A stretch of 64,000 nt of DNA from Rhodoferax sp. OV413 (GTDB lineage: Bacteria; Pseudomonadota; Gammaproteobacteria; Burkholderiales; Burkholderiaceae_C): contig CAMAWD010000001.1 in assembly GCA_945861785.1 (NCBI GenBank), positions 124,001-188,000 of the forward strand, written 5' to 3'. The notes below the pieces were generated by a model. That model made no database searches and was not told the DNA's origin. It saw only the letters and a list, made by a program, of their open reading frames with translations. Made by a program: the position numbers and the translations under genes. This document shows, piece by piece, positions 8,561 to 24,705 of the stretch (positions are counted from its first letter, which is position 1; every line of letters begins with the position of its first letter).

Positions 8561-8642
8561 GCGGTCTCCTTCGCGACCTGACTGTCAGAGCGGCGCACCC
8601 AGGCCGCTGCTTGTATTCGTCATCCAGGAATGTCGCGCGTTC

Positions 8643-10328
8643 TCAGGGGTTCAGGAAGTCCTCTTCCCAGTACTCGTGCACGCCGCGCAGGTTCGACGCT
8701 CGGCGCGCAGCTTCCTCGTTGCGCAACTCCACCCTGCGGATCTTGCCCGAGATGGTCTTGGGCAGTTCGCTGAACTGGATGCGACGGATCCGCTTGAAGG
8801 GTGCGACGCGTTCCCTGAGGAACACGAACAGCGCACGGGCGGCATCTGCCGAGGGTGCCACGCCTGGCTTCAGGACGACGAAGCCCTTGGGAACGGCCAG
8901 GCGTTGGGGGTCCGGGCTGGGTACCACCGCGGCTTCCGCGACCGAGGGGTGTTCGATCAGCACGCTTTCAAGCTCGAACGGACTCACGCGGTAGTCTGAA
9001 CTCTTGAAGACGTCATCGGTGCGACCGACGAAGGTGAAGCAGCCGTTCGCATCTCTCATCGCCACGTCGGATGTGCGGTAATGGGTGCCGCCCAGTGCGT
9101 CTGCGGTTCGCTGCTCGTCACCGGCATACCCATGCATGATCGACACCGGCGGCGGGTCGAGCGCCACACTGACTTCGCCTTCGGTTCCCTCCTGGCCTTC
9201 GGTATCGAGCAGCACCACCCGGTAGCCGGGCATCGGACGCCCCATGGAGCCGGCCTTGACCTCCTGCCCCGGTGAGTTGCCGATGATGCAGGTGGTCTCG
9301 GTCTGCCCGTAACCATCGCGGATGGTCAGGCCCCAGGCGCTCCGGACCTTGTCGATGATCTCGGCATTCAGTGGCTCCCCTGCGGAGAGTACTTCGCGCA
9401 GCCGGACCGGGTAGCTGGCCAGGTCAAGCAGCGCAAAGGCGCGCCACACTGTGGGCGGGGCGCACAGGCTGGTGACCCCGCAACGCACGATGGAGTCGAG
9501 CGTGCGCTTGGCGTCAAACCGCGCCTGCTCAAAGATGAACACACCCGCACCGGCATTCCACGGCGCGAAAAAGCAACTCCATGCATGTTTGGCCCACCCG
9601 GGCGAGCTGATGTTCCAGTGCACATCGTCCGGACGCAGGCCGAGCCAGTACATGGTCGACAGGTGCCCGACCGGGTAACTCGCCTGGGTGTGCAGCACCA
9701 TCTTGGCCTTGGCGGTGGTGCCGGAGGTGAAATACAGCAACAGCGGGTCAGTCGCGGCGGTCGCGCCCTCGGGGGTGAAGTCGGCGCTGCAGGACTGCGA
9801 TTCGTTGAAGTCCGACCAGCCCTGCAGGGCCCCTCCAATGGCGATGCGTGCCAGTCCCGGCCGGAGTCCGTCGCACAGGGGGGCCCGGGCATGGTCTGTG
9901 ATCAGCACACACATGCCGCCACGTTCGATCCGGTCTTCCAGGTCGACTCGGGTCAGCAGGGTCGCCGCGGGGCTGATCACCGCGCCCAGCTTGATGATGG
10001 CCAGCGTCAGTTCCCACAACGGTACGACATTGGGCAGCATCACGAGGATGCGGTCACCACGCCTGACACCCAGATTGCGCAAGTAGTTGGCTACACGGTT
10101 CGAGCGCGTGCTGATCTCGGCGAAGGTGAGTGCTGACTCGACCCCCTCGTCGTCGACGATGCGCAGCGCCATGCGGTTGTTGCCTCTGGCCAGTCCATCG
10201 AAATAGTCCAAGGCCCAGTTGAAATCGGCCGAGCGGGGCCATTGGAATTCGCGGTAAGCCAGTTCATAGTTGTCGCGGTGGCGGATGAGGAGGTCACGCG
10301 CCGCAAGGAATTCGTTCGCAGTGGACAT
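8643..10328 (-). CDS. Acyl-CoA synthetase (AMP-forming, ANL superfamily)
   Basis: The protein has 561 aa. The P-loop-like adenylation motif LLYFTSGTTAKAKMVLH, the GYGQTETT block, a TSD motif followed by FVGRTDDVFKSSDYR, and the C-terminal catalytic lysine context PKTISGKIRR are all present, so the enzyme looks intact. FKSSDYRVSPFELE resembles acetyl-/medium-chain acyl-CoA synthetases more than benzoate-CoA ligases. It would activate a carboxylic acid of the pathway with ATP and CoA. It is divergent from the Gfo/Idh/MocA gene across 69 bp containing a TTAG-N4-CTAA operator candidate, and precedes the Rieske gene at 8560. No strong ribosome site is visible upstream of the ATG. Confidence 0.9.
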   Translation of the reverse strand: MSTANEFLAARDLLIRHRDNYELAYREFQWPRSADFNWALDYFDGLARGNNRMALRIVDDEGVESALTFAEISTRSNRVANYLRNLGVRRGDRILVMLPNVVPLWELTLAIIKLGAVISPAATLLTRVDLEDRIERGGMCVLITDHARAPLCDGLRPGLARIAIGGALQGWSDFNESQSCSADFTPEGATAATDPLLLYFTSGTTAKAKMVLHTQASYPVGHLSTMYWLGLRPDDVHWNISSPGWAKHAWSCFFAPWNAGAGVFIFEQARFDAKRTLDSIVRCGVTSLCAPPTVWRAFALLDLASYPVRLREVLSAGEPLNAEIIDKVRSAWGLTIRDGYGQTETTCIIGNSPGQEVKAGSMGRPMPGYRVVLLDTEGQEGTEGEVSVALDPPPVSIMHGYAGDEQRTADALGGTHYRTSDVAMRDANGCFTFVGRTDDVFKSSDYRVSPFELESVLIEHPSVAEAAVVPSPDPQRLAVPKGFVVLKPGVAPSADAARALFVFLRERVAPFKRIRRIQFSELPKTISGKIRRVELRNEEAARRASNLRGVHEYWEEDFLNP

Positions 10329-10373
10329 GGCAGTTTCCAGAAATTGTTGCCGTGCCAGTATCCACAGTTTCGG

Positions 10374-10385
10374 TTAGAACCCTAA
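10374..10385. promoter_or_regulatory. Operator candidate TTAG-N4-CTAA in divergent promoter
   Basis: TTAGAACCCTAA lies in the 69-bp divergent gap between the acyl-CoA synthetase and the Gfo/Idh/MocA dehydrogenase. Read on the other strand it is TTAGGGTTCTAA, one base from the site at 15293 and two from those at 23194 and 24055. It starts 46 bp from the synthetase ATG and ends 13 bp from the dehydrogenase ATG. A protein bound here could repress both genes. The likely binder, by inference, is the MarR regulator at 23297. Confidence 0.55.
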
Positions 10386-10397
10386 TCAGGGGAAACC

Positions 10398-11666
10398 ATG
10401 ATGGAACCCAATCCCCACGAACCGGCGATCACCGCTAACATCGACCGGCATCTGCCCACGGATATTGCCATGACAAACACCCCACTGCGCATCGGTATCG
10501 CCGGCCTCGGACGCGCGTTCTCGGTCATGCTGCCGACCTTCTTGCACGACCCGCGTGTCCAACTGGTGGCCGCAGCGGATCCCATCGCAACGGCGAGGGC
10601 GAGGTTCGTGTCCGACTTCGGCGCACCGGCGTATGACTCGGTCGAGGCCGTGTGTGCAGATCCCCGGGTGCAGGTGGTCTATGTCGCAACGCCGCACCAG
10701 TTCCACAGCCAGCACGTGTGCCTGGCCGCCGCCCATGGAAAACACGTGCTGGTCGAAAAGCCCATGGCCATCACCCTCGATGAGTGCACGCGGATGGTGG
10801 AGGCTTGCCGAGCGGCTGGCGTGTACCTGATCGTCGGTCACAGCCACAGCTTCAACACTCCGATCCAGCGGCTGCGCACGCTGCTCGACAGCGGACGATT
10901 CGGCCGGGTCCGCATGATCAACGCCATCGACTACACCGACTTCCTCTACCGCCCGCGCCGGCCGGAAGAACTCGACACGCGTTCCGGTGGCGGTGTCGTG
11001 TTCAGCCAGGGCGCACATCAAATCGATATCGTGCGCCTGCTCGGCGGTGGCCTGGTGCGCAGCGTGCGCGCATTCACAGGCAGCTGGGACAGTTCACGCC
11101 CTACCGAAGGCGCCTACAGTGCCCTGCTGGGCTTCGAGGACGGAACGTTCTGCAGTGCCACCTACAGTGGGTACGGGCACTACGACAGCGACGCGCTGCT
11201 GGACGACATCGGGGAGTCGGGCGTAGCCAAGAGCGCGGCCGATTACGGCGCCGCACGCCGGCGGCTGGCCACGGCACAATCCGCCGACAAGGAGGCTGCC
11301 CTGAAGGCGGCACGCAACTACGGCGGCAGCCTGTATGCGCCATCTGCCGCCCTGCCGGTGGACCGGTTTCACCAGCATTTCGGTCATATGGTCATCAGCT
11401 GCGAACACGCGGACCTGCGTCCGACGTCCAAGGGGATCGAGATATTTGCCGACGATTCGCGGCATTTCGAGGCCCTGCCGCCGCCGGTTGTGCCGCGCCT
11501 GGAAGTGATCGACGAACTGCATGACGCAGTCATCCGAGACAGGCCACCGCTGCACAACGGGGAGTGGGCCCGCGCCACCACGGAAGTCTGCCTGGCGATT
11601 CTGGAGTCGGCGCGAATACAGGCTGACTGTGCGCTGACGCTGCAGGTCAGGCCGGTGGATCGCTGA
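10398..11666 (+). CDS. Gfo/Idh/MocA oxidoreductase, phthalate-dihydrodiol-dehydrogenase-like
   Basis: The protein has 422 aa from the ATG at 10398, preceded by CAGGGGAAACC; an internal ATG at 10470 would begin directly at the Rossmann fold but has a poorer ribosome site. The NAD(P)-binding motif reads LRIGIAGLGRAF and the family signature EKPMAITLDE is intact. The long form and the GIAGLGRAF start resemble phthalate 4,5-cis-dihydrodiol dehydrogenases (Pht4/OphB); the shorter CHMS dehydrogenase LigC belongs to the same superfamily and is the alternative. With a phthalate-type Rieske oxygenase and a dihydroxyphthalate-decarboxylase-like protein in the island, the dihydrodiol role fits best. Confidence 0.82.
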   Translation: MMEPNPHEPAITANIDRHLPTDIAMTNTPLRIGIAGLGRAFSVMLPTFLHDPRVQLVAAADPIATARARFVSDFGAPAYDSVEAVCADPRVQVVYVATPHQFHSQHVCLAAAHGKHVLVEKPMAITLDECTRMVEACRAAGVYLIVGHSHSFNTPIQRLRTLLDSGRFGRVRMINAIDYTDFLYRPRRPEELDTRSGGGVVFSQGAHQIDIVRLLGGGLVRSVRAFTGSWDSSRPTEGAYSALLGFEDGTFCSATYSGYGHYDSDALLDDIGESGVAKSAADYGAARRRLATAQSADKEAALKAARNYGGSLYAPSAALPVDRFHQHFGHMVISCEHADLRPTSKGIEIFADDSRHFEALPPPVVPRLEVIDELHDAVIRDRPPLHNGEWARATTEVCLAILESARIQADCALTLQVRPVDR

Positions 11667-11719
11667 GCGCAGGGGGCCGCAGCGCAGGCTTGCGGGCGTG
11701 CCGCGCTGTGCCGGGGAGC

Positions 11720-12688
11720 CTACTCGGCCTTGATTCCAGTGGCCCTGATCACGCGCACCCAGCGCTCGTTGTCCTGTCGGCGCAGTTGCTCGGTTTCGGC
11801 CACCGTACCCCCCACAGGGTCGAACGTGTTGGTCGAGATCCAATTGGCGATTTCGGGGGTCTGCAAGGCCTCGCTGACAGCGGCGGACAGCCTGCTGGCC
11901 ACTGCCGGCGGTGTTGCCGGCGGGGCGAACATCGCGAACCACACCATGGAGACGAAACCGGGCACGGCCTCGCCGATCGTTGGCACATCGGGCAACAACG
12001 GATTGCGTTTTTCGCTGCCGATACCCAGGGCACGCAATTTTCCGGACCGGATATGCGGCAGTGCCGAACCAAGGTTCAGGAACATCAACTCAACCTGCCC
12101 GCCCAGCAGATCCGCCATGGCCGGAGCGTTTCCCTTGTAAGCCACGTGCACGATCTTGGTGTTGGTCATGCCCTTGAACATTTCGCCGGTAAGGTGCGCC
12201 ACGCTCGCAATACCCTGCGATGCATAGTTGAGCTTGTCGGGGTTGGCCCGGGCATAGGCAATCAACTCGGGCAGCGACTGGGCCGCCACCTTGGGGTGAG
12301 CGACCAGCACACTGTATCCTTTGGCTGGCGCCGACAAGGCAATGAGAGCATCCGGTTCATAGCCCAATTGCGGATACAGCGTCTTCTGGACAAATGGACC
12401 CGGCATGAACAGCAGCGTCGAGCCATCCGGCGCCGAGCGAAATACCGCCTCGGCTCCCAGGTTGCCGCCTGCTCCCGCCCGATTTTCGACGACGAAAGGC
12501 TGGCTCCAGCGCGCCGACAGGTTCCCTGCAAGCAGTCGCGCCAGGGCATCCGTGGCTGAGCCGGCGGCAAAGGGCACGACAATACGCACCGGCTTGGACG
12601 GGTAGTCCTGTGCCTGTGCGGGCAGCCCATGCAGCAGGCCAGTCACGCCGGCGATCATGAGTATGCGTATGCAAAATTTTTTCATCAT
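11720..12688 (-). CDS. Bug/TctC-family extracytoplasmic solute-binding protein
   Basis: The protein has 322 aa from the ATG at 12688 (MMKKFCIRILM), which has GAAGG upstream; the ORF-track start at 12709 is less likely. An N-terminal signal peptide ends near PAQAQDYPSK. Family hallmarks are VRIVVPFAAGSATDALAR and VENRAGAGGNLG. Such proteins capture carboxylates in the periplasm for tripartite tricarboxylate (TctAB) transporters or act as sensors. No membrane subunits are present in the window. It is the last gene of the long minus-strand operon and converges on the Gfo/Idh/MocA gene with a 53-bp gap. Confidence 0.9.
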   Translation of the reverse strand: MMKKFCIRILMIAGVTGLLHGLPAQAQDYPSKPVRIVVPFAAGSATDALARLLAGNLSARWSQPFVVENRAGAGGNLGAEAVFRSAPDGSTLLFMPGPFVQKTLYPQLGYEPDALIALSAPAKGYSVLVAHPKVAAQSLPELIAYARANPDKLNYASQGIASVAHLTGEMFKGMTNTKIVHVAYKGNAPAMADLLGGQVELMFLNLGSALPHIRSGKLRALGIGSEKRNPLLPDVPTIGEAVPGFVSMVWFAMFAPPATPPAVASRLSAAVSEALQTPEIANWISTNTFDPVGGTVAETEQLRRQDNERWVRVIRATGIKAE

Positions 12689-12727
12689 CGGGCCTTCAAT
12701 GGTGGGCAAGGTTCGTTCGCAGCTGGT

Positions 12728-13468
12728 TCAGAAATTGCGAAGCAGGCGCCCGTACCCGGTGATGGCATCGTTCACGGCACAGCGGCGCAAAGCACTCCAG
12801 CAGATGGACTGGTGCGCTGTCACCACGTTGATTCCGAATTCCTTTTCGATCGGTTCTATCGACTCGGCCACAGCCCAATGCGGGCACGGCATCCACATCG
12901 TGTCGGCCGACGGCGCCTCAAGCATCAGCGCGCGCGCCAAGCCCATGGCAGTGCTGCGCGGCACCAGTCCGAGCCGGTCCGCCGGGAACCCAGCACCCTT
13001 CACTGCGGCTGGTTCGAATTTGTAATCGTCCAGGCAACGCGTGAAAAGGGCATCCTGGCTGGCATCGAAGGGATGACCGATGACAACCTTGCGGGCTCCC
13101 AATATCCGCAATGCTTCCATCTGTGCCGAAGTGCTGGTGGTCACCGGGACGCCGATGTCGCTCTGTACGTCGCGAATCAGCCCATCGACATCACTGCCGC
13201 GCGACCGGTTGATCGGCAACCCGCCGAGGACGAGGAGATCGACCGACGCCCGGGCAATCTCCCGCGCCGCGCGCAGGCTGATCTGGTAGCTCTGGTCGAT
13301 CTCGTCCTTGTTCATGTCGACGATCGCCAATGTCGATATGACCAGACAGACGCCTTCGGGCACCATTTTGTAGAACTCGAACGGGAACACCTCGGTAGCG
13401 GCCGGAGGCGAGGTGTAGCCGATCCGGGCACGGTAGCCATAGATGTCGCGTGGGGAATGTACTTGCAT
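12728..13468 (-). CDS. Maleate isomerase / arylmalonate decarboxylase-like protein (Asp/Glu racemase superfamily)
   Basis: The protein has 246 aa. The N-terminal RARIGYTSPPAATEVFPFEF and the central VTTSTSAQMEALRILGARKV are typical of the maleate cis-trans isomerase/AMDase branch. Two cysteines normally catalyse racemisation or isomerisation in this superfamily. Here the second position is present (WMPCPHW), whereas the position before TTST is Val, so only one catalytic Cys is visible, a pattern reminiscent of arylmalonate decarboxylase (inference). It lies 21 bp downstream of a paralogue that retains both cysteines. A role in isomerising or decarboxylating a ring-cleavage diacid is plausible. 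Confidence 0.8.
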   Translation of the reverse strand: MQVHSPRDIYGYRARIGYTSPPAATEVFPFEFYKMVPEGVCLVISTLAIVDMNKDEIDQSYQISLRAAREIARASVDLLVLGGLPINRSRGSDVDGLIRDVQSDIGVPVTTSTSAQMEALRILGARKVVIGHPFDASQDALFTRCLDDYKFEPAAVKGAGFPADRLGLVPRSTAMGLARALMLEAPSADTMWMPCPHWAVAESIEPIEKEFGINVVTAHQSICWSALRRCAVNDAITGYGRLLRNF

Positions 13469-13489
13469 GGCGGTGGAAGCCCGTGCTGC

Positions 13490-14215
13490 TCAGCGCTGCA
13501 GTGTCGAGAAGATGCGGCCATACCCCGTGATCGGCTCCCGGATGTCGAGCATCTCGAATACGTGCCACAACATGGCCTGGAAACTCGAAATTACCGGAAC
13601 CCCGAGGTCGGCCTCCAGCGGTGCGATGTTGTCGAACGTCGGCATCTGGGCGCAGGGCATGTAGACCGCATCGACATCCGGGGCCATCCGGTATGCCTGC
13701 TTGGCAAGCTGGTACGACGCGCGGGAGGCCATGGACCCTATCTCGATGACCGGCAGCCCCAATCCCTTGATGGCGACAACGGCAATGCCCGAGTCTTCGA
13801 GGAACTTCTTCAGCAGCAGATTCTGGTCCTCCGCAAACGGAGACGCAATCGCGATCCTTTTCGCACCCAGTCGCCGCAGCGCCTCAACAGCCCCGGTCTG
13901 GCTCGTTGTGCATGGGATCGTGGTCACTTCATGCATTTGGCGGATGATCTCCTGGTCAAAGCCGTAGCCCCCATAGGTCACCGTCGGCGACCCTCCCAGC
14001 GCGATGACATCGGATTTGGCGCGTGCCAGTTCGGCAGTGGCATCCTTGAGCTTGAGCAGTGCTGCGCCGATGTTGTCGCGGTCCAGGCGCTGGATCGACA
14101 GGCAGGTCAGGGCCAGTGCAACGCCGGGAGGCGCCACCTTTGGAAACTCCTGGACCATGGTCTCGGCAGTCATCGATGGGCAGATGAAGCCTATGCGGGC
14201 GCGCCATGCGTACAT
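13490..14215 (-). CDS. Maleate isomerase-like protein (Asp/Glu racemase superfamily), two-Cys form
   Basis: The protein has 241 aa starting MYAWRARIGFICPSMTAETM. Both putative catalytic cysteines are visible: TIPCTTSQTGAVEAL and YMPCAQM. That is the arrangement of maleate cis-trans isomerases and Asp/Glu racemases, which use Cys addition to the double bond or alpha-carbon deprotonation. It ends with the same ITGYGR tail as the next gene, so the two are tandem paralogues. In an extradiol pathway an isomerase could act on an unsaturated diacid such as an oxalomesaconate tautomer; that is inference. It follows a Bug gene by 52 bp. Confidence 0.82.
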   Translation of the reverse strand: MYAWRARIGFICPSMTAETMVQEFPKVAPPGVALALTCLSIQRLDRDNIGAALLKLKDATAELARAKSDVIALGGSPTVTYGGYGFDQEIIRQMHEVTTIPCTTSQTGAVEALRRLGAKRIAIASPFAEDQNLLLKKFLEDSGIAVVAIKGLGLPVIEIGSMASRASYQLAKQAYRMAPDVDAVYMPCAQMPTFDNIAPLEADLGVPVISSFQAMLWHVFEMLDIREPITGYGRIFSTLQR

Positions 14216-14267
14216 GAAATCGATCTCCGGGGTCGTAGGTGGTGGATGTCGAAGTGCGCCGCAAGCG

Positions 14268-15236
14268 TCAGTCGGCCTGGATACCGGTTGCCTTGACTAC
14301 GGACGCCCACTTTGTTGTCTCTTCGCGGATAAAGCTGGCGAACGCCAGGGGGTTCATGGTCATGACGCTCATTTGCGCTGCGCCCAGGCGCTTCTGGGTG
14401 TCCGGCTGCGCAAGCGCCTCGGTGATCTTCGCGTTGAGCAGGTCGATGATCGGCCCGGGGGTTCCGGCTGGCGCAAAAATGCCATGCCAGGACGTCGCCT
14501 CGAATCCCGGAAACGTCTCGGAGACCGCCGGCAGGTCGGGCAGGTTGGGCAGTCGCCTGGCCGCGGTGGTCGCCAGCCCCACCAGCTGACCAGCGGCTAC
14601 CTGTTGCACGACCTGACCGGCATCAAACATGAAATTGATATGGCTCCCGAGCAAAGCAACATTGGCCGGGCCGCTTCCGCCGAATGGAATGGGCCGGACA
14701 TCAATCCCGGCGCTGGCTCGGAAGAGCTCCGCAAACAGGTGCTGGGTGCTGCCACTGCCTGCCGTGCCGTAGGTGACCTGCCCGGGCTTTGCCTTGGCCA
14801 TCGCGATCAGTTCGGCAACCGATCGCACGCCGAGCGACGGAGGAACGACGAGGAACGTCGGCACACTGGCTATCGGCGCGACCGGGGTCAGCTCCTTTGC
14901 AGGCTGGTAGGGCAGCTTGGCGCCATACAGGGCCGGATGGATCGCGATCGTGCCCACGTACCCATGGACCAGTGTGTAGCCGTCGGGTGCAGATCTGGCT
15001 GCCTGCGCAGTACCAATATTGCCTGCCGCGCCAGGCCGGTTGACGACCACAAAAGGCTGCCCCAGCATTTGGGTGAGTTTCTCGGCGATGACACGGGTGG
15101 AGAGGTCGGTCGACCCGCCCGGTGGATACCCGACAATCACGGTCACCGGCTTGCTTGGGTAGGCCTGCGCAAATACCGCACCACCCAGAAGGACGCCGGC
15201 GACAGCCAGAAGCAACTTTCCGACCCGAAACTTCAT
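14268..15236 (-). CDS. Bug/TctC-family extracytoplasmic solute-binding protein
   Basis: The protein has 322 aa. I choose the ATG at 15236 (MKFRVGKLLL) because AGGAG lies 9 bases upstream; the ORF-track ATG at 15245 directly abuts that ribosome site. The signal peptide ends near VFAQAYPSK. Family motifs include VGYPPGGSTDLSTR and NRPGAAGNIGTAQ. It would bind a carboxylic acid in the periplasm. It begins after a 171-bp gap containing an operator candidate, the only large gap within the operon, so it may start a separately promoted sub-operon with the two isomerase-like genes and the last Bug gene. Confidence 0.9.
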   Translation of the reverse strand: MKFRVGKLLLAVAGVLLGGAVFAQAYPSKPVTVIVGYPPGGSTDLSTRVIAEKLTQMLGQPFVVVNRPGAAGNIGTAQAARSAPDGYTLVHGYVGTIAIHPALYGAKLPYQPAKELTPVAPIASVPTFLVVPPSLGVRSVAELIAMAKAKPGQVTYGTAGSGSTQHLFAELFRASAGIDVRPIPFGGSGPANVALLGSHINFMFDAGQVVQQVAAGQLVGLATTAARRLPNLPDLPAVSETFPGFEATSWHGIFAPAGTPGPIIDLLNAKITEALAQPDTQKRLGAAQMSVMTMNPLAFASFIREETTKWASVVKATGIQAD

Positions 15237-15292
15237 TGGGAACATCTCCTTTCAGATGCGTTGAACAGCACCACGAGTGTGCATCTCGATGG

Positions 15293-15304
15293 TTAGGGAT
15301 CTAA
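15293..15304. promoter_or_regulatory. Operator candidate TTAGGGATCTAA inside the catabolic operon
   Basis: The site lies 57 bp upstream of the Bug gene ATG at 15236, almost the same distance as the identical-class site upstream of the Rieske gene (56 bp). It differs at one base from the duplicated sites at 23194 and 24055. It occupies the one long gap of the operon, which suggests an internal regulated promoter. The sequence just to its right, GGGGGAAACCCTGA, also resembles the right flank of the site at 10374. Confidence 0.5.
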
Positions 15305-15407: not shown

Positions 15408-16382
15408 CTACTCCGCCGCAGGAATTTTGGCCACTTTCACCGCACGTTCGTAGCGCTTCAGGCTGGCACGGATGTTGGTCGCATACTGCAACGGAGTCGT
15501 GTACTTGATGTCGATGCCCCTGGCGCGGAACGAGTCCACGATCTCGGGGGATTCAGAGGCCAGCTTGATGGCGGCAGCCAATTTCTCCAGGACATTTGCG
15601 GGCAGGCCGGCAGGCGCCAGGATGCCGGTTTCGGAAGCGAAGTCGTAGTCCTTGATCAATTCACCGATGGATGGCACATTGGGTAAACCGGCAGCGCGGT
15701 AACTTGTGCTCACACCCAAGGCAAACAACTTGCCGGCGGCAATATGGGGCCCGGCTGTCGCAGCCGACGTGGCGAGCACCGGAACCTCGCCGGCCAGGAT
15801 GGCACCCACGGACTGCCCACTGCCCTTGTAAGGGATGTGCAGCAACTCCACACCCGAGTCCTCGAAGAATGTCGCCATCGAGATGTGGTGGATGCTGCCC
15901 ACACCCGAGGTGCCGAAGTCGATCTTGCCCGGACGGGCCTTGGCCTCGCGAATGAGGTCCTGCAGGCTGCGGATGCTGGTATTGGCACTGGCCACCAGAA
16001 GCACGCCCCCGGTCGCCACCATGCTGATGGGCGTGAAGTCGCGAAGCACGTCGTAGCCCAGGTTCTTGTAGATGTAAGGGGCCACGAACAACTGACCTGT
16101 CTCGCCCGCGATCAGGGAGTACCCGTCAGGCGGCATCTTGACGAACTGCGCGGTGGCTGTGGTTCCGGCAGCGCCCGGGCGGTTCTCGACCACGAAGGGC
16201 TGGCCCAGCAACTCTCCCAGCTTCTTGGCATAGGCGCGGGCCACCAGATCGGGAACGCCACCGGCCGGATGGCCGACGTAGATCTTCACGGGTTTGTTGG
16301 GGTAGTCCTGGGCAAAGGCACTGGTGGCGGCCGCCAGCAATCCCGCAAACGCCAGGATCAGGGTCTTGAGCCATATCGCCAT
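15408..16382 (-). CDS. Bug/TctC-family extracytoplasmic solute-binding protein
   Basis: The protein has 324 aa from the ATG at 16382 (MAIWLKTLIL), with AAGGAGA upstream; the ORF-track start at 16448 would add residues before the signal peptide. Cleavage is predicted after TSAFAQ. Motifs include VGHPAGGVPDLVARAYAKKL and ENRPGAAGTTATAQ. It is closely related to the Bug gene just upstream (16483): both share QLFVAPY, RDFTPISMVAT, GKIDFG and HIPxKGSGQSV, which indicates a recent tandem duplication. A periplasmic carboxylate receptor role is expected. Confidence 0.9.
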   Translation of the reverse strand: MAIWLKTLILAFAGLLAAATSAFAQDYPNKPVKIYVGHPAGGVPDLVARAYAKKLGELLGQPFVVENRPGAAGTTATAQFVKMPPDGYSLIAGETGQLFVAPYIYKNLGYDVLRDFTPISMVATGGVLLVASANTSIRSLQDLIREAKARPGKIDFGTSGVGSIHHISMATFFEDSGVELLHIPYKGSGQSVGAILAGEVPVLATSAATAGPHIAAGKLFALGVSTSYRAAGLPNVPSIGELIKDYDFASETGILAPAGLPANVLEKLAAAIKLASESPEIVDSFRARGIDIKYTTPLQYATNIRASLKRYERAVKVAKIPAAE

Positions 16383-16482
16383 CGTTGTCTCCTTCAGTTG
16401 GTGCAAAAACAGAACTCGCAATAACACGCCGGACCGCCATTCCCGCACGGTTCACGGCCGTCGCGGCAGAACGTAGGAGAAC

Positions 16483-17457
16483 TCAGTCGGCCAGAGGAAT
16501 CTTGGCGATTCTGACGGCGCGCTCGTATTTCTTCAGGTTGACCCGGATGTTCTCAGCGTATTCGGCAGGCGTGGTGTAGCGGACGATGAGGCCGGACTTG
16601 CGAAGGCCCTCCGTCACCTCCGCCATCTCCGAGACCTTCTTCACAGCCGCCGACAACTTGGACAGTATCGGCGCTGGCAGGCCGGGTGGCGCCAGAAAGC
16701 CCACTTCGGATGCGAAGTCGTAGCCCTTCACGAACTCGCCGATGGACGGCACATTCGGATACCCTGGCAGACGGAAACTGGTCGACACCGCCAGCGGGAT
16801 GAGTTTGCCTGCCGCAACATGCACTCCAGCGCCCGCAGCAGACGTTGCGAGCACCGGCACCTCACCCGCCAACGCACTCACGACCGACTGACCACTGCCT
16901 TTGAAGGGAATGTGCTGCATGTCGATACCGGAGTCCTCCATGAACGTGGACATCACGATGTGGTGGATGGTGCCGATGCCGGAACTGCCAAAGTCGATCT
17001 TGCCTGGTCGCGCCGTGGCCTCCCGGATCAGGTCCTGCAGGGTCTTGATCGACGACCCCGGCGTGGAAACGACCATCACCGCCGTAGTCGCCACCATGCT
17101 GATGGGCGTGAAATCGCGAACCGTATCGTACTGCAGGTTCTTGTAGACATAGGGCGCCACAAACAGCTGGCTGGTTTCGCCCACCAGCAGCGTGTAGCCG
17201 TCCGCTGGCATCTTGGACACCTGGGCAGTGGCCGTGGTGGCGCCTGCGCCGGGCCGGTTCTCCACCACCACCGGTTGCCCCAGGACCTCGCCGAGTTTCT
17301 GCGCAAATCCGCGGGCGACGACGTCGGGGCCGCCGCCAGCCACAAATCCGACGATCATCTTGATCGGCCTCGCGGGATAGTCCTGCGCGAACGCGCCACT
17401 GGTTGCCGCCAGCACCGCCGCCAATGCCATGAACCGTCTGCCCAGCGCCTTGTTCAT
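16483..17457 (-). CDS. Bug/TctC-family extracytoplasmic solute-binding protein
   Basis: The protein has 324 aa, starting MNKALGRRFMALAAVL, with AAGGGAA upstream and a signal peptide ending near GAFAQ. It shows the same family motifs as its neighbour at 15408 (VVENRPGAGATTATAQ, KIDFGSSGIGTIHH). It starts 19 bp after the extradiol dioxygenase stop, so it is probably co-transcribed with the ring-cleavage genes. The tandem pair probably distinguishes related aromatic acids or their degradation products, but no substrate can be read from the sequence. Confidence 0.9.
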   Translation of the reverse strand: MNKALGRRFMALAAVLAATSGAFAQDYPARPIKMIVGFVAGGGPDVVARGFAQKLGEVLGQPVVVENRPGAGATTATAQVSKMPADGYTLLVGETSQLFVAPYVYKNLQYDTVRDFTPISMVATTAVMVVSTPGSSIKTLQDLIREATARPGKIDFGSSGIGTIHHIVMSTFMEDSGIDMQHIPFKGSGQSVVSALAGEVPVLATSAAGAGVHVAAGKLIPLAVSTSFRLPGYPNVPSIGEFVKGYDFASEVGFLAPPGLPAPILSKLSAAVKKVSEMAEVTEGLRKSGLIVRYTTPAEYAENIRVNLKKYERAVRIAKIPLAD

Positions 17458-17476
17458 CTGTTTCCCTTGTCAGCAA

Positions 17477-18469
17477 TCATTTCCACACGATGAAACCCGC
17501 ACCGACACCGGTGCCCGCTGGCGTCCGGTACAAGGGCAGGTATTCGGACCACGCCACCGGCATACCTTCCATGGCGCCGGCGGTCAAAACCCAGTTGAGG
17601 ATCTCGGACGACCCTGAGTTGAGCGCACCACGCGGCAGCGAACGCAGCGTCGCGGCGTCGCCAGCCACCAGTGCGCCCATGACGCTGCGGTCGAGCGCCT
17701 CATCCACGACAAAATGGCTCAGCCCACCGGATGCCACGATGGCAACCCGCCGGTCTGACCGGTCGGACTCGAGCACCCTGCGCAAGGCCCGTCCGATGTC
17801 GTGGCAGCGCGCCGCGCTCGGCACGTTGGGCGGGAAGTAGGTGTTGAGCAACAACGGCACCATCGGGATGGGACGCTGGCGGAACAGCCGCTTCGAAATG
17901 AAGCCAAATGCGTGCCCGAGTCCGGCCTTGCCGCCATCACCACAGCTCGCCACAGCGGTCACATCGACGCCCTGGTCGATCAGGCCTTCGATGAGTTGGA
18001 GGGCGAACGCCTGCTGCCCGGGGAGCGTGTGACGCGTGTCCATCAGGTAGCCCCTGCCCATGGTCTTGACCCAATCGGGTGACCCTTGACGTCCAAACGC
18101 ATCGCTCGTGATCAGCTGGTCGTTGTGGTAGATCGCGAACGCAGGCTGGTTGGCCGGACCAAAAAGTTCCCCCTGGTCATCCCCAACGATGAGGACGATG
18201 TCTGGCTGGGCGGCCTCCAGCGTATCGGCCAGGCGGTTCAGGGCGGCTTCACACAACTGCGCCTTGCGTTCGAGTTCGGACGGCTGCGACACCTCGGTGT
18301 AGCGGGGGCCGGTTTCCGCCAGCAGCTCTGCATAGGAGACCCAGCGGCCGTCCGACAGGTTCAACCGGGGGTTGTTGCGGTCGGCCTCTGCGCGGTGCTG
18401 CCAGTCTGAACTCTCCAACGTGAACAGCGGGGTATGGGAAGTGCCGATTCCGAGAACGATATTGGCCAT
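17477..18469 (-). CDS. Class III extradiol ring-cleavage dioxygenase (LigB superfamily)
   Basis: The protein has 330 aa from the ATG at 18469 (MANIVLGIGTSHTPLF); the extra N-terminus in the ORF track is a shadow of the preceding RraA gene. LigB-type features are the early GTSHTP histidine, PDIVLIVGDDQGELF, a YHND segment, PMVPLLLNTYFPPN and the C-terminal catalytic block VASGGLSHFVVDE. Such Fe(II) enzymes open protocatechuate or gallate rings next to the diol. Only the LigB-like domain is present; no LigA small subunit is encoded alongside. Downstream-pathway enzymes lie directly upstream in the same operon, which supports cleavage of a protocatechuate/gallate-like ring. Confidence 0.87.
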   Translation of the reverse strand: MANIVLGIGTSHTPLFTLESSDWQHRAEADRNNPRLNLSDGRWVSYAELLAETGPRYTEVSQPSELERKAQLCEAALNRLADTLEAAQPDIVLIVGDDQGELFGPANQPAFAIYHNDQLITSDAFGRQGSPDWVKTMGRGYLMDTRHTLPGQQAFALQLIEGLIDQGVDVTAVASCGDGGKAGLGHAFGFISKRLFRQRPIPMVPLLLNTYFPPNVPSAARCHDIGRALRRVLESDRSDRRVAIVASGGLSHFVVDEALDRSVMGALVAGDAATLRSLPRGALNSGSSEILNWVLTAGAMEGMPVAWSEYLPLYRTPAGTGVGAGFIVWK

Positions 18470-18479
18470 GGCGTAGAAC

Positions 18480-19112
18480 CTAGTTGGTTGCAGGTAGCTT
18501 GTAGACGTCGATCGTTCGTGCGCCCTGCTTGAGCCGCGCGACGATCTCGAGTTCATCGCGTTCGCGCTGCAAGCCTGCAGCGACGACGCGCACGGCATCG
18601 GCGCGCGCCAAAACCACCACGCCGTCTGCGTCGGCGACCAACAGGTCACCGGTATGCACGAGGATGTCGCCGATCAGCGCCGACCGGCCCACCGACCCGG
18701 CGCCATCGGCCCGCTTCGTGGTGCCACGGATGCAGACACCGGCGGAGAACACCGGCCAGTCAAGCGTGCGAAGTTCCTCGGAATCCCGCACCCCCCCTTC
18801 GGTGACGAACCCGGCCAGTCCGCACTCGCGGGCCGCATTGGCCATGATGCCACCCCAATAACCGGCCTCGGCGTCGGCGCCACATTCGTGGAGCAGCACG
18901 GCTCCCTTGGGTGCCGCGTAGATGGCACGGTGCAGCCACAGGTTGTCGCGCGGGGGGCCGACCACCGTGAAGACCGGGGCGGCAATACGCCAATCGTTGC
19001 GCAACGGCTTGATGGCCGAAGGCAAGGCCCCCATCTTGCCACCGGCTTCGTGCAACGTGGCACTGCCCAGCTGGCGCGCCTGGTGCAGCAGATCGTGGGG
19101 GAACCCGTCCAT
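18480..19112 (-). CDS. RraA-family protein, CHA-aldolase-like (copy 3 of 3)
   Basis: The protein has 210 aa. The RraA/4-carboxy-4-hydroxy-2-oxoadipate aldolase fold is indicated by LGSATLHEAGGK near the N-terminus, YWGGIMANAARECGLAGFV, the TEGGVRD segment that carries the Arg-Asp of the metal/pyruvate site, and DGVVVLARADA. The N-terminus has HEAGG where aldolases usually have a Ser-Asp pair, so it is the most diverged of the three. It lies 10 bp before the extradiol dioxygenase gene and overlaps the previous RraA gene by one base. An aldolase, oxaloacetate decarboxylase or accessory role are all possible. Confidence 0.82.
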   Translation of the reverse strand: MDGFPHDLLHQARQLGSATLHEAGGKMGALPSAIKPLRNDWRIAAPVFTVVGPPRDNLWLHRAIYAAPKGAVLLHECGADAEAGYWGGIMANAARECGLAGFVTEGGVRDSEELRTLDWPVFSAGVCIRGTTKRADGAGSVGRSALIGDILVHTGDLLVADADGVVVLARADAVRVVAAGLQRERDELEIVARLKQGARTIDVYKLPATN

Positions 19113-19768
19113 CAGGATGTTCCCTTGGTCTGAAGGGCGTGGTAGCCCTGATTCTTGCGCGCCTGATCGAGCCGCTCACCCCGTTCCACTGCTGCACGAA
19201 TGTGGTCTTCTGCCTGCTCGATGCGGCTCGCCACCTCGGCCACTTGCTCGATGCGCTCCTTGGGCACCACCACCACCCCGTCCCAATCGCCGAGTACATA
19301 GTCACCCGGGTCGACACGCACACCACCGATCGAAATGCTGCATTGCACCGCGTCCACTGCAACACGGTCCTTGCCGGTGCGCATGTGGCTGGCGCGCGCG
19401 AAGATCGGGTATTTGAGTTCGATGGCACGGGGCGCGTCACGGCACACGCCATCGATCACGGTGCCGCCCAAGCCCTTGCGGCTGGCCACGATGGTGAGGA
19501 TGTCACCCCACACGGTGGCATCCATGCGCTGCTGGTTGTCGAGCGCCACGACCGTTCCTGGCCCGAGATCGTCGATGTAGTCGCCGACCGTGCCGCCGCG
19601 CGTCCCGCACGGCACGTAACGGATGGTGAAAGCGGGCCCGGCTGCCCGAAAACCCGGATCCAGCGGCTTGATGCCCAGACATTGGCCGGCGATACCCAGC
19701 TTGTCCAGCGCGTCCGAGACGGTGGTTGTGTCCATGCGGCACAGCGCCGCCATTGCTTGGGTAGTCAT
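19112..19768 (-). CDS. RraA-family protein, CHA-aldolase-like (copy 2 of 3)
   Basis: The protein has 218 aa. TTTVSDALDKLGIAG and GTVIDGVCRDAPRA are the typical aldolase blocks, the latter bearing the conserved Asp and Arg-Asp of the class II metal site. DWDGVVVVPKERIEQV is also a family motif. It abuts the third copy upstream with no spacer. Class II pyruvate aldolases of this family split 4-carboxy-4-hydroxy-2-oxoadipate to pyruvate and oxaloacetate, the last step after extradiol cleavage of protocatechuate or gallate, and fit beside the hydratase-like gene at 20446. Confidence 0.87.
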   Translation of the reverse strand: MTTQAMAALCRMDTTTVSDALDKLGIAGQCLGIKPLDPGFRAAGPAFTIRYVPCGTRGGTVGDYIDDLGPGTVVALDNQQRMDATVWGDILTIVASRKGLGGTVIDGVCRDAPRAIELKYPIFARASHMRTGKDRVAVDAVQCSISIGGVRVDPGDYVLGDWDGVVVVPKERIEQVAEVASRIEQAEDHIRAAVERGERLDQARKNQGYHALQTKGTS

Positions 19769-20449
19769 TCAGCTGCCTTTCAACATGCTCTCATACTGGT
19801 GGCTCATCACCACGCTCACCGGTTCGCCGTTGCGCACCCGGGCAATCATCTGCTGCTCGCGTGCGGCCAGGCCTTCGGCGGTGGCCAGGACCTCCTCCAG
19901 GCGGGCGGCCGGCACGAACACCACGCCGCTGCTGTCCGCCAGCACCCAGTCACCGGGGCGCACGCGAATGCCGCGCACCACGATCGGCTCCTGGCAGGCG
20001 ATTTCCATCACCCGCCCGCGCGCCGTCGCCGGCACGGCGCCGACGCCGAAGACCGGAAAACCGAACTCAATCGCCTCGTCGATGTCGCGGCACATGCCGT
20101 CGACGATCACACCCTCGATGCCGCGGCTCTTGGCGGCGAAGGACAAGATGCCGCCCCAGCCCGCAGCCTGCTGGTGCGCATGGTGCTCGACCACGATCAC
20201 ATCGCCCGGACCACCCTGGTCGACGGCCGCCGTGCACAGATGGCGTGGCGCGACCCCGCCCTCGGCCGGGCCCAGGGTGACCGTGATCACACGGCCGGCC
20301 ACGCGCGTCTGGCCGGCCAGGCGGCCGATGCCGAAGGCCACGCCGCGGATGCCCAGGCGGTCCAGTGCGTCGGACAACACGCAGGTGTCGACCTTCACCA
20401 GCCGCGCTTGCACAGCGCGGGCGGCTTCGGCCGTCAGCACTGCGCTCAT
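19769..20449 (-). CDS. RraA-family protein, CHA-aldolase-like (copy 1 of 3)
   Basis: The protein has 226 aa from the ATG at 20449, whose ATGA overlaps the stop of the amidohydrolase gene by 4 bp; the 475-aa ORF in the track is an over-extension into that gene. VDTCVLSDALDRLGIRG and GVIVDGMCRDIDEAIE are the family blocks with an intact Asp/Arg-Asp site. Of the three copies, this one is translationally coupled to the 4-oxalomesaconate-hydratase-like protein and is therefore the best candidate for the pathway's 4-carboxy-4-hydroxy-2-oxoadipate aldolase. Confidence 0.88.
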   Translation of the reverse strand: MSAVLTAEAARAVQARLVKVDTCVLSDALDRLGIRGVAFGIGRLAGQTRVAGRVITVTLGPAEGGVAPRHLCTAAVDQGGPGDVIVVEHHAHQQAAGWGGILSFAAKSRGIEGVIVDGMCRDIDEAIEFGFPVFGVGAVPATARGRVMEIACQEPIVVRGIRVRPGDWVLADSSGVVFVPAARLEEVLATAEGLAAREQQMIARVRNGEPVSVVMSHQYESMLKGS

Positions 20450-21441
20450 TTGTAGTTCTTGAAGTGGGTGTACAGGCGGGCGCAGTTGCACTCGAAAATG
20501 TTCTCGCGGTCCTTGTCGCTGAGCATCTCCATGGCCTCGATCACCGGTTTGAGGTCGTCGAAGCTGCGGCCCGAGCGCGGGTCGATCTGGCTGCCCGTGC
20601 CCGGGTTCTCGGTGGCAAAAAGCACCCGCTCGGTGCCAACCACCTTGAACAGCAGCTCCAGCGCGTCCTTGTCGTAGGTGGTGGTGTCGAAGTGCAGGTG
20701 CTTGAGCTGCTCGTCGAAGAAGGCCTCTTTCTTGTGCACCGACCAGGCCCTGAAGCGCCCCATGTGGTAGGGGATGGCGCCGCCGCCGTGCGGGATGATG
20801 AGCTTGAGCGTGGGGAAGCGCTTGAACACCTCCGAGGACAGCAGCGAGGTGATGGCGATGCTCTCCTCGTTGATGAACTTCAGCGTGTACGACAGGCGTG
20901 GCTCGCAGCTGCCGGCTGAATGCACCAGGGCCGGTATGTCGAGCTCGCACAGTTTCTCGTACAGCGGGTACCAGAACGGGTCGCCCATGCCGGGAGGGGG
21001 CGCAGCGTCGCCCTCGGTCGGGTCGGGGTTGAGCAGGCAGCCGATGAAGCCCTGCTCCTTGACGCGGAATTCGAGCTCTTCGAAACAGTTGACCGGCGAG
21101 GTATCGCGGTACTGGGGCAGGCCGGCCACGGCGCGAAAGCGGGTCGGGAACATTTCGACCGTGCGGTAGACCAGGTCGTTCATGTAACGCGTCCACAGCG
21201 CAGTCACCTTGGACGGCTTGACCGAGTGCATCTGCATGTAGGGCCGCGGCGACAGGAACTGGATGTCCGTGCCGACCCTGTCCATGATGTCGATGATGGT
21301 CTGGCCGGCCTTGCGCACCGATTCTTCGGGCAGCACCGGCGGGGAGGTGGGGTTGGCGCGGCTCGCCACCAGTTCGGCCATGTATTTGTAGGCCTCGGGC
21401 GGTACGACCACGTGGGCGTGGGAGTCGATGATCAATGGCAT
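20446..21441 (-). CDS. Amidohydrolase-family hydratase, 4-oxalomesaconate hydratase (LigJ)-like
   Basis: The protein has 331 aa starting MPLIIDSHAHVVVPPEA; His8 and His10 are the metal-binding HxH of the amidohydrolase fold. RMNDLVYR-like and GLPQYRDTSP segments, NPDPTEGD, and LIIPHGGGAIPYHMGRFR match the ACMSD/LigJ branch as I recall LigJ. That enzyme hydrates 4-oxalomesaconate to 4-carboxy-4-hydroxy-2-oxoadipate. The gene is followed by an overlapping aldolase-like gene and, further on, an extradiol dioxygenase, a coherent order. Decarboxylase activity, as in other ACMSD-type enzymes, is the main alternative. Confidence 0.85.
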   Translation of the reverse strand: MPLIIDSHAHVVVPPEAYKYMAELVASRANPTSPPVLPEESVRKAGQTIIDIMDRVGTDIQFLSPRPYMQMHSVKPSKVTALWTRYMNDLVYRTVEMFPTRFRAVAGLPQYRDTSPVNCFEELEFRVKEQGFIGCLLNPDPTEGDAAPPPGMGDPFWYPLYEKLCELDIPALVHSAGSCEPRLSYTLKFINEESIAITSLLSSEVFKRFPTLKLIIPHGGGAIPYHMGRFRAWSVHKKEAFFDEQLKHLHFDTTTYDKDALELLFKVVGTERVLFATENPGTGSQIDPRSGRSFDDLKPVIEAMEMLSDKDRENIFECNCARLYTHFKNYK

Positions 21442-21471
21442 GGGAGGGGTCTTTCGTCAGGGTTAATGGAG

Positions 21472-21864
21472 TCAGGTAATTACGGCCACGGCTTCAAGCT
21501 GCACCAGCATGCCGCCGCGCAGGTCGTACATCAGGGTGTGGCGCGCCGGGCGGTCGTGGGGGTCGGGGAAGCGCTGCAGCCACTGTTCGTTGACGGCTGC
21601 TCGCGCGGAGTCGTCCTTGATGAAGACGGTCATGCGCACCAGGTGGTCCAGCGTGGCGCCGCCGGCCCGCAGCAGGCTCTCCATGTTCTGGAATGCGAAT
21701 TTGACCTGCTCGGCAACGTCCGCGGGCAAGGTGTCGGTCGCCGGGTCCTTGCCCATGATACCGGAGGAATAGATGACATTGCCGACACGCGCACCCATCG
21801 GGATGGGCGCGTTGCCGTGCGTGATGCCGGGGACTTCGAGGCTGCGGCCTTTGCGTTCACTCAT
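21472..21864 (-). CDS. RidA/YjgF-family protein
   Basis: The protein has 130 aa with AGGAG upstream of the ATG. GARVGNVIYSSGIMGKDPATD, an EQVKFAFQNMESLL helix and HLVRMTVFIKD are family features. The Arg typical of imine deaminases before the C-terminal Glu is recognisable in DPHDRPARHTLMYDL. RidA proteins hydrolyse reactive enamines/imines, and members embedded in catabolic operons may act as tautomerases or deaminases on pathway intermediates. It sits between the Rieske gene (32 bp) and the hydratase-like gene (30 bp), so it is a true operon member. Confidence 0.88.
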   Translation of the reverse strand: MSERKGRSLEVPGITHGNAPIPMGARVGNVIYSSGIMGKDPATDTLPADVAEQVKFAFQNMESLLRAGGATLDHLVRMTVFIKDDSARAAVNEQWLQRFPDPHDRPARHTLMYDLRGGMLVQLEAVAVIT

Positions 21865-21896: not shown

Positions 21897-23138
21897 CTAG
21901 GGCTCGAAGACGAGGCCGAGTGCGTCAGCGATGGGGGAGAAGCGCACATGGGTGCGCGACACGAAGGTGCGAAAGCTGCCGCGAAAGTGCTTCTTGCCCT
22001 TCTCGTTGGGCAAATCGATGCGCTGGTTGCGCGCCTCATCGCGGATCACCCCCATCGGGTCTTCCCCGCGCTCCACCTTCTTCATCTCGCGGCGCAGCAT
22101 GCGCCGGTACATCGCAATCCCCTGGTCCGAGGCCCCCAGATTTTCGCGTGTGCGGTTCGCAAGCGGCCCCTGCGTCAGCCACGCCATGACGTCCTGGCCG
22201 TCAATGTGGTCCACGCGGAACTCGCCATTGGCCAGCCGGAACGGCACCTCGTGCAGGTGCACCTCCTGCAGCAGCCGCGGCGGCACCGAGGCCCCCGGCG
22301 GCGGCGTGTACGCGTGGTACCAGAAGTGCATGGTGTTCTCGTCGTCCATCGGCACCCGCATCTGGAACACATAGGCGCGTTTGTCCTCGTCGCCGTTGCC
22401 TACCGCGAGCATGCTGGGGAACACAATCGGGTGGCCCACCTTCCAGTCGTCACCCTCTTCGCTCTGCCCCTCGAGCAGCCGGTGCTTGGTGATGCCCCAC
22501 TCGAACTCCCGAAAGTCGATCTTCTTGTGCGTGGCGCTGATGTGCGTCTTCACCCCCTCCTGCTCCAGCAGGAACTCCGTGCTGCGCCCGTGCAGCCACT
22601 CCGCATGCACCGGGTCCAGCGAAGTCTCCACGATCTGCAGCCAGTTGCACGGAATGTGCGCATGGCCCAGCAACCGGATCGCGCCCGGCACCACAAAACC
22701 ATCAAAACGCGGCAGCAGCGGCACCGGCTTGGGGCCCAGGTAGGCAAACACCAGCCCGCCAAGCTCCTGCACCGGGTAGCCCGCAATCCCCACCTTCTGG
22801 CGGAACTCCAGGTTGTCCTTCTCAAACGGCTGGCTCAGGCACTGGCCCTGGGCGTTGAACTCCCAGCCGTGGTAGGGGCAGCGGATACCGCCCTCGGTGG
22901 GCAAACCGTAGACAAACGAGGCCCCCCGGTGCGGGCACTGGTGCTCGACCAGGCCCAGGCGACCCTGGCGGTCCTTGAACAGCACCAGATCCTCGCCCAG
23001 CAGGCGCACCGCCTTGGTCCACTTGTCGCGCAGTTCCACGGCCGCGGCCACCGGGTGCCAGTAACGGCGCATCAATTCGCCCCCCGGCGTGCCTTTGCCC
23101 ACCTGGGTGAGCAGCCGGTTTTGCTCTGCCGTTTCCAT
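21897..23138 (-). CDS. Rieske [2Fe-2S] aromatic oxygenase, alpha subunit (third copy, operon head)
   Basis: The protein has 413 aa from the ATG at 23138 (METAEQNRLLTQVGKGTPGG) with GAAGGAG upstream; the track's start at 23189 is inside the promoter. The Rieske ligands are C68-x-H70 and C87-x2-H90, and the iron motif is ETSLDPVHAEWLH. It is the first gene of the 13-gene operon running to 11720 and probably performs the entry reaction (dioxygenation or O-demethylation) producing a substrate for the LigB-type dioxygenase. Its promoter region is duplicated on the far side of the adjacent marR-like gene. Confidence 0.93.
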   Translation of the reverse strand: METAEQNRLLTQVGKGTPGGELMRRYWHPVAAAVELRDKWTKAVRLLGEDLVLFKDRQGRLGLVEHQCPHRGASFVYGLPTEGGIRCPYHGWEFNAQGQCLSQPFEKDNLEFRQKVGIAGYPVQELGGLVFAYLGPKPVPLLPRFDGFVVPGAIRLLGHAHIPCNWLQIVETSLDPVHAEWLHGRSTEFLLEQEGVKTHISATHKKIDFREFEWGITKHRLLEGQSEEGDDWKVGHPIVFPSMLAVGNGDEDKRAYVFQMRVPMDDENTMHFWYHAYTPPPGASVPPRLLQEVHLHEVPFRLANGEFRVDHIDGQDVMAWLTQGPLANRTRENLGASDQGIAMYRRMLRREMKKVERGEDPMGVIRDEARNQRIDLPNEKGKKHFRGSFRTFVSRTHVRFSPIADALGLVFEP

Positions 23139-23139
23139 C

Positions 23140-23267
23140 GATGCTCCTTCGTTTTGCCTGAACCTCGCCACCGGCCCGCAGAGCAGCACCCGATTAGCGA
23201 TCTAAGTCTAGCAAATTCCTGACGGCGATCAAGTGCGACCGATCCTCTTTGCGCTAGGGAAAACCCT
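23140..23267 (-). promoter_or_regulatory. Promoter/leader of the Rieske operon; copy 1 of a 128-bp duplication
   Basis: This segment matches 24001-24128 with no gaps; a 61-bp core (23193-23253) is identical. It ends right at the Rieske start codon and includes the ribosome site. On the minus strand TTGATC (23227-23232) and TAGACT (23205-23210) are spaced by 16 bp, and the palindrome TTAGCGATCTAA (23194-23205) sits over the expected transcription start, a classic repressor position. Confidence 0.6.
23194..23205. promoter_or_regulatory. Operator candidate TTAGCGATCTAA (Rieske operon)
   Basis: Palindromic arms TTAG/CTAA surround CGAT, 56 bp upstream of the Rieske ATG and immediately downstream of the predicted -10 box. 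The same 12-mer recurs at 24055, and one-to-two-base variants occur at 15293 and 10374. The neighbouring MarR-family gene is the obvious candidate regulator. Confidence 0.6.
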
Positions 23268-23296
23268 TGGGGTGCGGGACGGCGCGGCAGCGCCGC

Positions 23297-23836
23297 TCAG
23301 CCGACCTTGCGCAGCGGCGGCAAGGTGCGGTTCATCCGGAACTCGTCGACTTCGAGGTTCTTCATCATCGTGATGGCGGTCTTGCGGAAGATCGCGACGT
23401 CGCGCGGAGCAATGCCGCCAATGGCCACCGAGTTGAGCTCCTCGGCCAGCGGGATCAGCTTGTCTTTCAGGGCGCGACCTTCGGGTGTCAGCAGGATGCA
23501 CACGTTGCGCAGGTTGCTGGGGAGCTTCTGGCGCGAGATGTAACCCAGCGACTCCATGGCCCGCAGCGCGCTGTAGGTGGTGGGCTCGGTCACGCCGGCG
23601 TAGTCGCTCAGCTCGCGCTGGGTGATGCCGTCGTGCTCCCACAGGACCCGCAGGAAGGCCCAGTACCCGTAAGAGACCGCATGGTCCATCAGGCGGATCT
23701 GCATGCCCCGGGTCATGCCACGCAACAAATCCTTGACAACGTACGCCAGGCGGTCGTTGGGTACCGCCTCGCGCCACCGGCGCCGCCCTGGCGGCACGGA
23801 AGTATCGATTCGAGAGTCCTTGATGCGAGTAGCCAT
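23297..23836 (-). CDS. MarR-family transcriptional regulator
   Basis: The protein has 179 aa. A winged helix-turn-helix is visible around residues 60-120: AFLRVLWEHDGITQRELSDY, then GVTEPTTYSALRAMESLGYI and the wing RNVCILLTPEGRAL. Helical dimerisation segments flank it. MarR proteins bind short palindromes and release DNA on binding aromatic acids or their CoA esters. It lies at the head of the catabolic operon, in the same orientation, and is itself preceded by a second copy of the operon promoter and operator, implying autoregulation and shared control. Confidence 0.92.
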   Translation of the reverse strand: MATRIKDSRIDTSVPPGRRRWREAVPNDRLAYVVKDLLRGMTRGMQIRLMDHAVSYGYWAFLRVLWEHDGITQRELSDYAGVTEPTTYSALRAMESLGYISRQKLPSNLRNVCILLTPEGRALKDKLIPLAEELNSVAIGGIAPRDVAIFRKTAITMMKNLEVDEFRMNRTLPPLRKVG

Positions 23837-24000
23837 AGGTCTTTATTTTCTGGCGGGAGCCCGGAGCCGGTGCTGGTACGGCGCTCCCAGGTTGGCAAGT
23901 GTACTGGCCGGCACCCGGGTGGCTGCGGAAATGGCTTTCAGAGGTTCGGCAGCAGTCGCGTGGACTTCGCACTTGAGACAAAAATCATGGTCTCATCCTG
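23837..24000 (-). other. Leader between duplicated promoter and marR-like gene
   Basis: There are 164 bp between the duplicated promoter and the regulator ATG. Directly after the duplicated ribosome site there are two short overlapping reading frames, one of three codons (MRP) and one of 16 codons beginning MIFVSSAKSTRLL and ending in TGA. No homology is recognised. It may be a leader peptide or merely the junction of the duplication. Confidence 0.35.
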
Positions 24001-24128
24001 GATGCTCCTTCGTTTTGCCTGAACCTCGCCACTGGCCCGCATCGCAGTATCCTATTAGCGATCTAAGTCTAGCAAATTCCTGACGGCGATCAAGTGCGAC
24101 CGATCCTCTTTGCGTCAGTGAAAACCCC
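24001..24128 (-). promoter_or_regulatory. Copy 2 of the duplicated 128-bp promoter, upstream of marR
   Basis: It is gap-free homologous to 23140-23267 (offset 861 bp) and carries the same TTGATC/TAGACT promoter elements, the palindrome TTAGCGATCTAA at 24055-24066 and the same ribosome site. It faces the marR-like gene. The remaining 71 bp to the hemerythrin stop (24129-24199) show nothing recognisable. Confidence 0.6.
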
Positions 24129-24663: not shown

Positions 24664-24705
24664 TTGATGCTTGATGCTTGATGCTTGATGCTTGATGCTT
24701 GATGC
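24664..24705. repeat. Heptanucleotide tandem repeat (TTGATGC)6
   Basis: Six perfect head-to-tail copies of TTGATGC lie 12 bp upstream of the hemerythrin ATG, in its leader (GCATCAA on the coding strand). The unit length is not a multiple of three, so copy-number change would shift any upstream-initiated reading frame and alter leader length. Such loci are typical slipped-strand mutation sites. Confidence 0.85.

Follow-up and report, generated by a model that had tools for sequence, protein, structure and literature searches.

The promoter-operator that precedes an aromatic-catabolism operon in the window (the whole 64-kb stretch of DNA analysed here) has been duplicated, so that the adjacent MarR-family protein probably represses both copies, which would give matched induction of operon and regulator together with negative autoregulation. 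In the proposed circuit, MarR would repress the operon through a 128-bp promoter-operator-ribosome site segment, its dimer binding the palindrome TTAG-N4-CTAA. Because this palindrome overlaps the start site and the end of the -10 box, the bound dimer would block RNA polymerase until it is released from the operator by a substrate or intermediate of the pathway. Near-identical promoters with the same operator would drive both marR and the Rieske operon, leading to matched induction, and copy 2 would transcribe marR through a 164-nt leader, leading to negative autoregulation. MarR binding, repression, the inducer and the use of copy 2 through this leader are inferred. The case would be a traceable one of a regulator and its target gaining shared control by promoter copying, the earlier state being apparently retained in orthologous clusters.

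The repeat is direct and 127 nt long, with a start-to-start spacing of 861. Ungapped alignment of the two copies gives 118 identical positions out of 128, i.e., 10 differences, and the longest identical run is 61 bp (23193-23253 and 24054-24114). The initial annotation, which had described a repeated 128-bp segment with a gap-free identical core of 61 bp and the same orientation of both copies, is borne out on these points, both copies lying on the minus strand, as do the hemerythrin, marR, Rieske and following genes. Its further statement that the copy ends exactly at the Rieske start codon holds for copy 1, which stops 1 nt before the ATG; it left out that copy 2 is not directly adjacent to marR, lying 164 nt from the ATG of that gene. 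The similarity of the copies is far above chance: a BLAST search of the source genome with copy 2 returned two places only (E 1.3e-61 and 1.2e-48, 93% identity), with no third copy in the 7.1 Mb and 202 contigs of that assembly. Although a draft genome in 202 contigs might contain a false duplication, such an assembly artefact is scarcely credible here, because the copies differ at 10 positions and have unique flanks on both sides; the repeat also sits inside a long contig.

Each copy is predicted to be a promoter-operator. The -35 and -10 boxes are weak by consensus; a scan of the region for consensus sigma-70 promoters gave no hit, and conservation was used for the promoter call instead. In copy 1, the -10 box is extended, being preceded by TGC, and its last T is common to the box and the operator, while the ribosome binding site (RBS) and the Rieske start codon read GGAGCATC-G-ATG. 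The earlier proposal that the segment holds a promoter and an operator is supported by its conservation in orthologous clusters (L003 and L004, see below) and by its match to a clade-wide architecture. The coordinates of these elements and of the surrounding genes are given in Table 1.

Table 1. Features of the duplicated promoter-operator and its surroundings, in window coordinates.
Feature	Position	Strand	Basis or remark
Copy 1, promoter-operator-RBS segment, in the gap between marR and the Rieske gene	23140..23266	-	Same position and core in L003, L004
Copy 2, extra and probably derived, upstream of marR	24001..24127	-	Absent upstream of marR in L003, L004
Operator TTAGATCGCTAA (TTAG-N4-CTAA), copy 1	23194..23205	.	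Candidate, from sequence
Operator TTAGATCGCTAA, copy 2	24055..24066	.	Candidate, from sequence
-10 box TAGACT, copy 1	23205..23210	-	Invariant in L003, L004; -10/operator abutment clade-wide
-35 box TTGATC, copy 1, 16-nt spacer	23227..23232	-	Conserved in L003, L004
-10 box TAGACT, copy 2	24066..24071	-	Sequence
-35 box TTGATC, copy 2	24088..24093	-	Sequence
marR, MarR-family regulator, 179 aa	23297..23836	-	PF01047, 41.7 bits (cut-off 24.6)
Leader, copy 2 to marR start codon, 164 nt	23837..24000	-	Mini-ORFs MRP* and 16-aa ORF
Rieske oxygenase gene opening the controlled operon; C-terminal domain LigXa-like	21897..23138	-	PF00355 and PF19301 above cut-off
Rest of catabolic operon	15408..21864	-	Gene order same in L003
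Further exact TTAG-N4-CTAA site, weaker candidate operator	10374..10385	.	Between start codons of AMP-ligase (10328, -) and Gfo/Idh (10398, +)
Further exact TTAG-N4-CTAA site, weaker candidate operator	15293..15304	.	48 nt upstream of TctC gene (15245, -)

Scanning of the 64 kb yielded four exact TTAG-N4-CTAA sites, all within the catabolic cluster, and none with one mismatch; the whole genome has 14 exact sites vs. 33 of a reversed control pattern. On the plus strand, GGGGAAACC follows each of the two sites outside the repeat, and neither has an abutting -10 box. They may be additional operators, recognised by this regulator or by a different one.

The palindrome recurs well beyond this genome. 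In 852 kb of sequence around 80 marR homologs, TTAG-N4-CTAA occurs 81 times vs. 0.87 times expected under a first-order model, and in 58 of the 81 cases a Rieske start codon follows 27-268 nt downstream. It was not found in 183 kb of control loci (Rieske or amidohydrolase homologs with no clade MarR), nor were exact sites present at L005 and L007-L013, which carry close MarR homologs and no Rieske neighbours. When the clade promoters are aligned, the -10 box runs directly into the palindrome and the spacing of -35 box, -10 box and operator is common to them, many reading TTGACA-N17-TAATCT/TTAG; the window promoter, with its TTAG-N4-CTAA operator and abutting -10 box upstream of the Rieske gene, shares this geometry, its spacer being 16 nt. 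Collectively, TTAG-N4-CTAA is very probably the operator of a MarR subfamily linked to Rieske clusters, a candidate operator that would be common to dozens of related bacteria. The window protein itself contains the MarR winged helix-turn-helix domain and matches MarR structures by sequence, and the best conserved part of the MarR protein is the putative recognition-helix (helix-turn-helix) region. Searches of open-access literature returned nothing relevant for the operator word, and the operator thus appears not to have been described before. The MarR subfamily concerned is widespread in Proteobacteria, where it is found beside Rieske oxygenase genes of phthalate-type and other aromatic pathways. 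This is a more useful result than the duplicated-promoter variant of the circuit. The operator sequence could allow regulon prediction from sequence and biosensor design.

The layouts found among the relatives bear on whether marR is autoregulated. In most of them marR closes an operon that is transcribed away from the Rieske gene, the usual order being Rieske(-) <-operator-> reductase(+) Gfo/Idh(+) marR(+), and one operator region can therefore serve both regulator and target. Caballeronia/Paraburkholderia-type loci have a separately placed marR, and in 12 of the 14 examined a conserved operator variant, TTCGATATCTAATCAT, belongs to it on the upstream side. This variant, or a close form of it, precedes the marR match by ~200 bp (L017, L020, L023, L024, L026, L028, L030, L033, L036, L037, L041 and L070) and has one fixed departure from TTAG-N4-CTAA. 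Several loci, many of them alphaproteobacterial, show paired operators ~50-110 bp apart in the gap between the Rieske and reductase genes (L014, L018, L025, L031, L038, L042, L047, L049, L053, L055, L068 and L073). Thus, a putative operator upstream of the regulator is common in the clade. Autoregulation in the window is likely, because regulator and target usually come under a common predicted operator in the clade. The genes here all run in the same direction, and a duplicated promoter would put an operator before marR.

The orthologous clusters indicate which copy came first. Two such clusters, both in metagenome-assembled genomes (MAGs), were found among the 80 genomic loci with related MarR genes: L003, from a Rubrivivax MAG (MarR 79%), and L004, from a betaproteobacterial MAG (MarR 74%). 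In both, the Rid and amidohydrolase genes come after marR, and TTGATC-N16-TAGACT joined to TTAGrTnnCTAA stands between marR and the operon, kept while most of the nearby intergenic sequence is not conserved. Nothing like this element occurs upstream of marR in L003 or L004, where Gfo/Idh and VanB-type reductase genes are found instead. The initial annotation had suggested looking for the duplication in related strains, and these clusters carry the element at the copy 1 position only. Because of this, copy 1 presumably occupies the shared, ancestral place and copy 2 is presumably an extra, derived copy that arose by lineage-specific duplication. Of the nucleotide differences between the copies, one site favours copy 1 and two conflict when compared with L003 and L004; these differences leave the direction unsettled, and the polarity therefore rests on gene position. 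Duplication during cluster assembly, as originally suggested, is plausible. Six other genomes of the genus were searched and lack the catabolic cluster, as would be expected had it been acquired by transfer, but this does not date the duplication. Likewise, no MarR as close as those of L003 and L004 was present in the six congeners or in 399 sampled genomes of the order, and an amidohydrolase query against 401 genomes of the family returned only homologs of 76-81%, in differently ordered clusters.

Copy 2 could alternatively be a passive scar of cluster rearrangement beside the hemerythrin and pyruvate carboxylase genes, which lie upstream of the window marR, with marR expressed from a weak leader promoter or by read-through. 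The 164-nt distance to marR and an RBS that precedes only a 3-codon ORF (ATG AGA CCA TGA) and no real gene count against the use of copy 2 and are what such a scar would leave; in addition, a TACACT hexamer upstream of marR is present in L003 and L004 too, and the neighbours of marR differ between the window and these clusters. Moreover, autoregulation is not universal even among the orthologs, as no operator adjoins marR on its upstream side in L003 or L004. However, the differences between the copies cluster outside the identical 61-bp promoter-operator core (permutation P = 0.012 for an identical run of this length), and other lineages retain an operator before marR, making a mere scar unlikely. 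As for the leader itself, no intrinsic terminator was found in it on the minus strand, its predicted RNA structure is not special (z = -0.77), a search in it for leftover pieces of genes, marR and Rieske among them, gave nothing convincing, and no plasmid match was found.

Repression of the duplicated promoters by MarR also has to be weighed against readings that change the role of the protein or of the repeat. MarR-family activators exist, and one of aromatic operons is BhbR2 (PMC12016517), so MarR might act at the TTAG-N4-CTAA sites as an activator or dual regulator; this is improbable, given that the site overlaps the -10 end and start region both in the window and across the clade, as fits polymerase blocking, whereas the BhbR2 footprint covers the -35 box, from -22 to -43 (PMC12016517). 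The repeats might instead bracket marR as a deletable cassette, given that the gene lies between direct repeats of 93% identity spaced 861 bp apart, and recombination between them would remove marR with one copy, leaving a constitutive operon. This is compatible with the preferred explanation and not exclusive of it, but as a reading in its own right it is very improbable: the deleted form is not seen in the one assembly, its recombination product occurs in no relative, and so short a repeat would recombine rarely. We give little credence to a combined version, in which the duplicated segments restored autoregulation after the divergent layout was lost and also act as a deletable repressor cassette. 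If true, recombination would let the pathway alternate between an inducible and a constitutive state.

MarR repression of tandem promoter copies can be set beside several known systems. The phthalate-type clusters (Rieske, VanB reductase, Gfo/Idh and MarR), represented by L014-L082 and by plasmid pPNAP04 of Polaromonas naphthalenivorans, have the same MarR subfamily. Most of L014-L082 have the same operator and many an operator-abutted -10 box, but they mostly have one divergent operator region, whereas the window has two tandem promoter copies. CbaR of Comamonas testosteroni BR60 (Tn5271), from work by Providenti and Wyndham in 2001, is reportedly a MarR-like repressor adjoining a Rieske oxygenase operon; its sites are said to lie at the start site and just downstream, and the cbaR gene to be divergent. 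It would resemble the window MarR in belonging to a Rieske operon of a comamonad, its gene being divergent unlike the window marR, and it may be a characterised relative. The closest described circuit is that of DesR in Sphingobium sp. SYK-6, a repressor of the MarR type that controls aromatic catabolism and recognises similar inverted repeats before its target genes and its own gene (PMC6888825). Similar sites at own and target promoters are thus what DesR shares with the proposal made here. However, the DesR sites are short similar repeats of the GTTTGTGTnACATAC type, differently placed at each promoter, whereas in the window the duplication takes in an entire promoter-operator-RBS segment, with TTAG-N4-CTAA as the putative operator. 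HpaR is a MarR repressor of a meta-cleavage operon, and its autoregulation is discussed in the same work (PMC6888825); the window MarR scores 35.7 bits against the HpaR equivalog (TIGR02337), below the cut-off of 121.2.

The operon downstream of the Rieske gene encodes Rid, an amidohydrolase-2, three RraA-like aldolases, a LigB-type extradiol dioxygenase and two TctC solute-binding proteins, and these genes, together with the Rieske gene, point to a pathway in which an aromatic acid undergoes extradiol cleavage. In L003 only a remnant of the Rieske gene with an internal deletion is left (6676-6978), and in L004 the gene is absent (6480-6680). Because the putative promoter-operator and the downstream pathway genes remain in both clusters, the pathway seems able to dispense with the oxygenase or to replace it. 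Reductase and Gfo/Idh genes, usual but not universal neighbours in the subfamily, are not adjacent to the window marR; the Gfo/Idh gene at 10398 is 12 kb away from it, and the nearest homologs of the L003 reductase are on other contigs. The cluster goes on at 7238-15245, where it encodes another LigXa-like Rieske protein, an AMP-binding ligase, Gfo/Idh, two arylmalonate-decarboxylase-like proteins and additional TctC proteins. On the other side of marR, a 7-mer, GATGCTT, is tandemly repeated at 24664-24705, just upstream of the hemerythrin gene.
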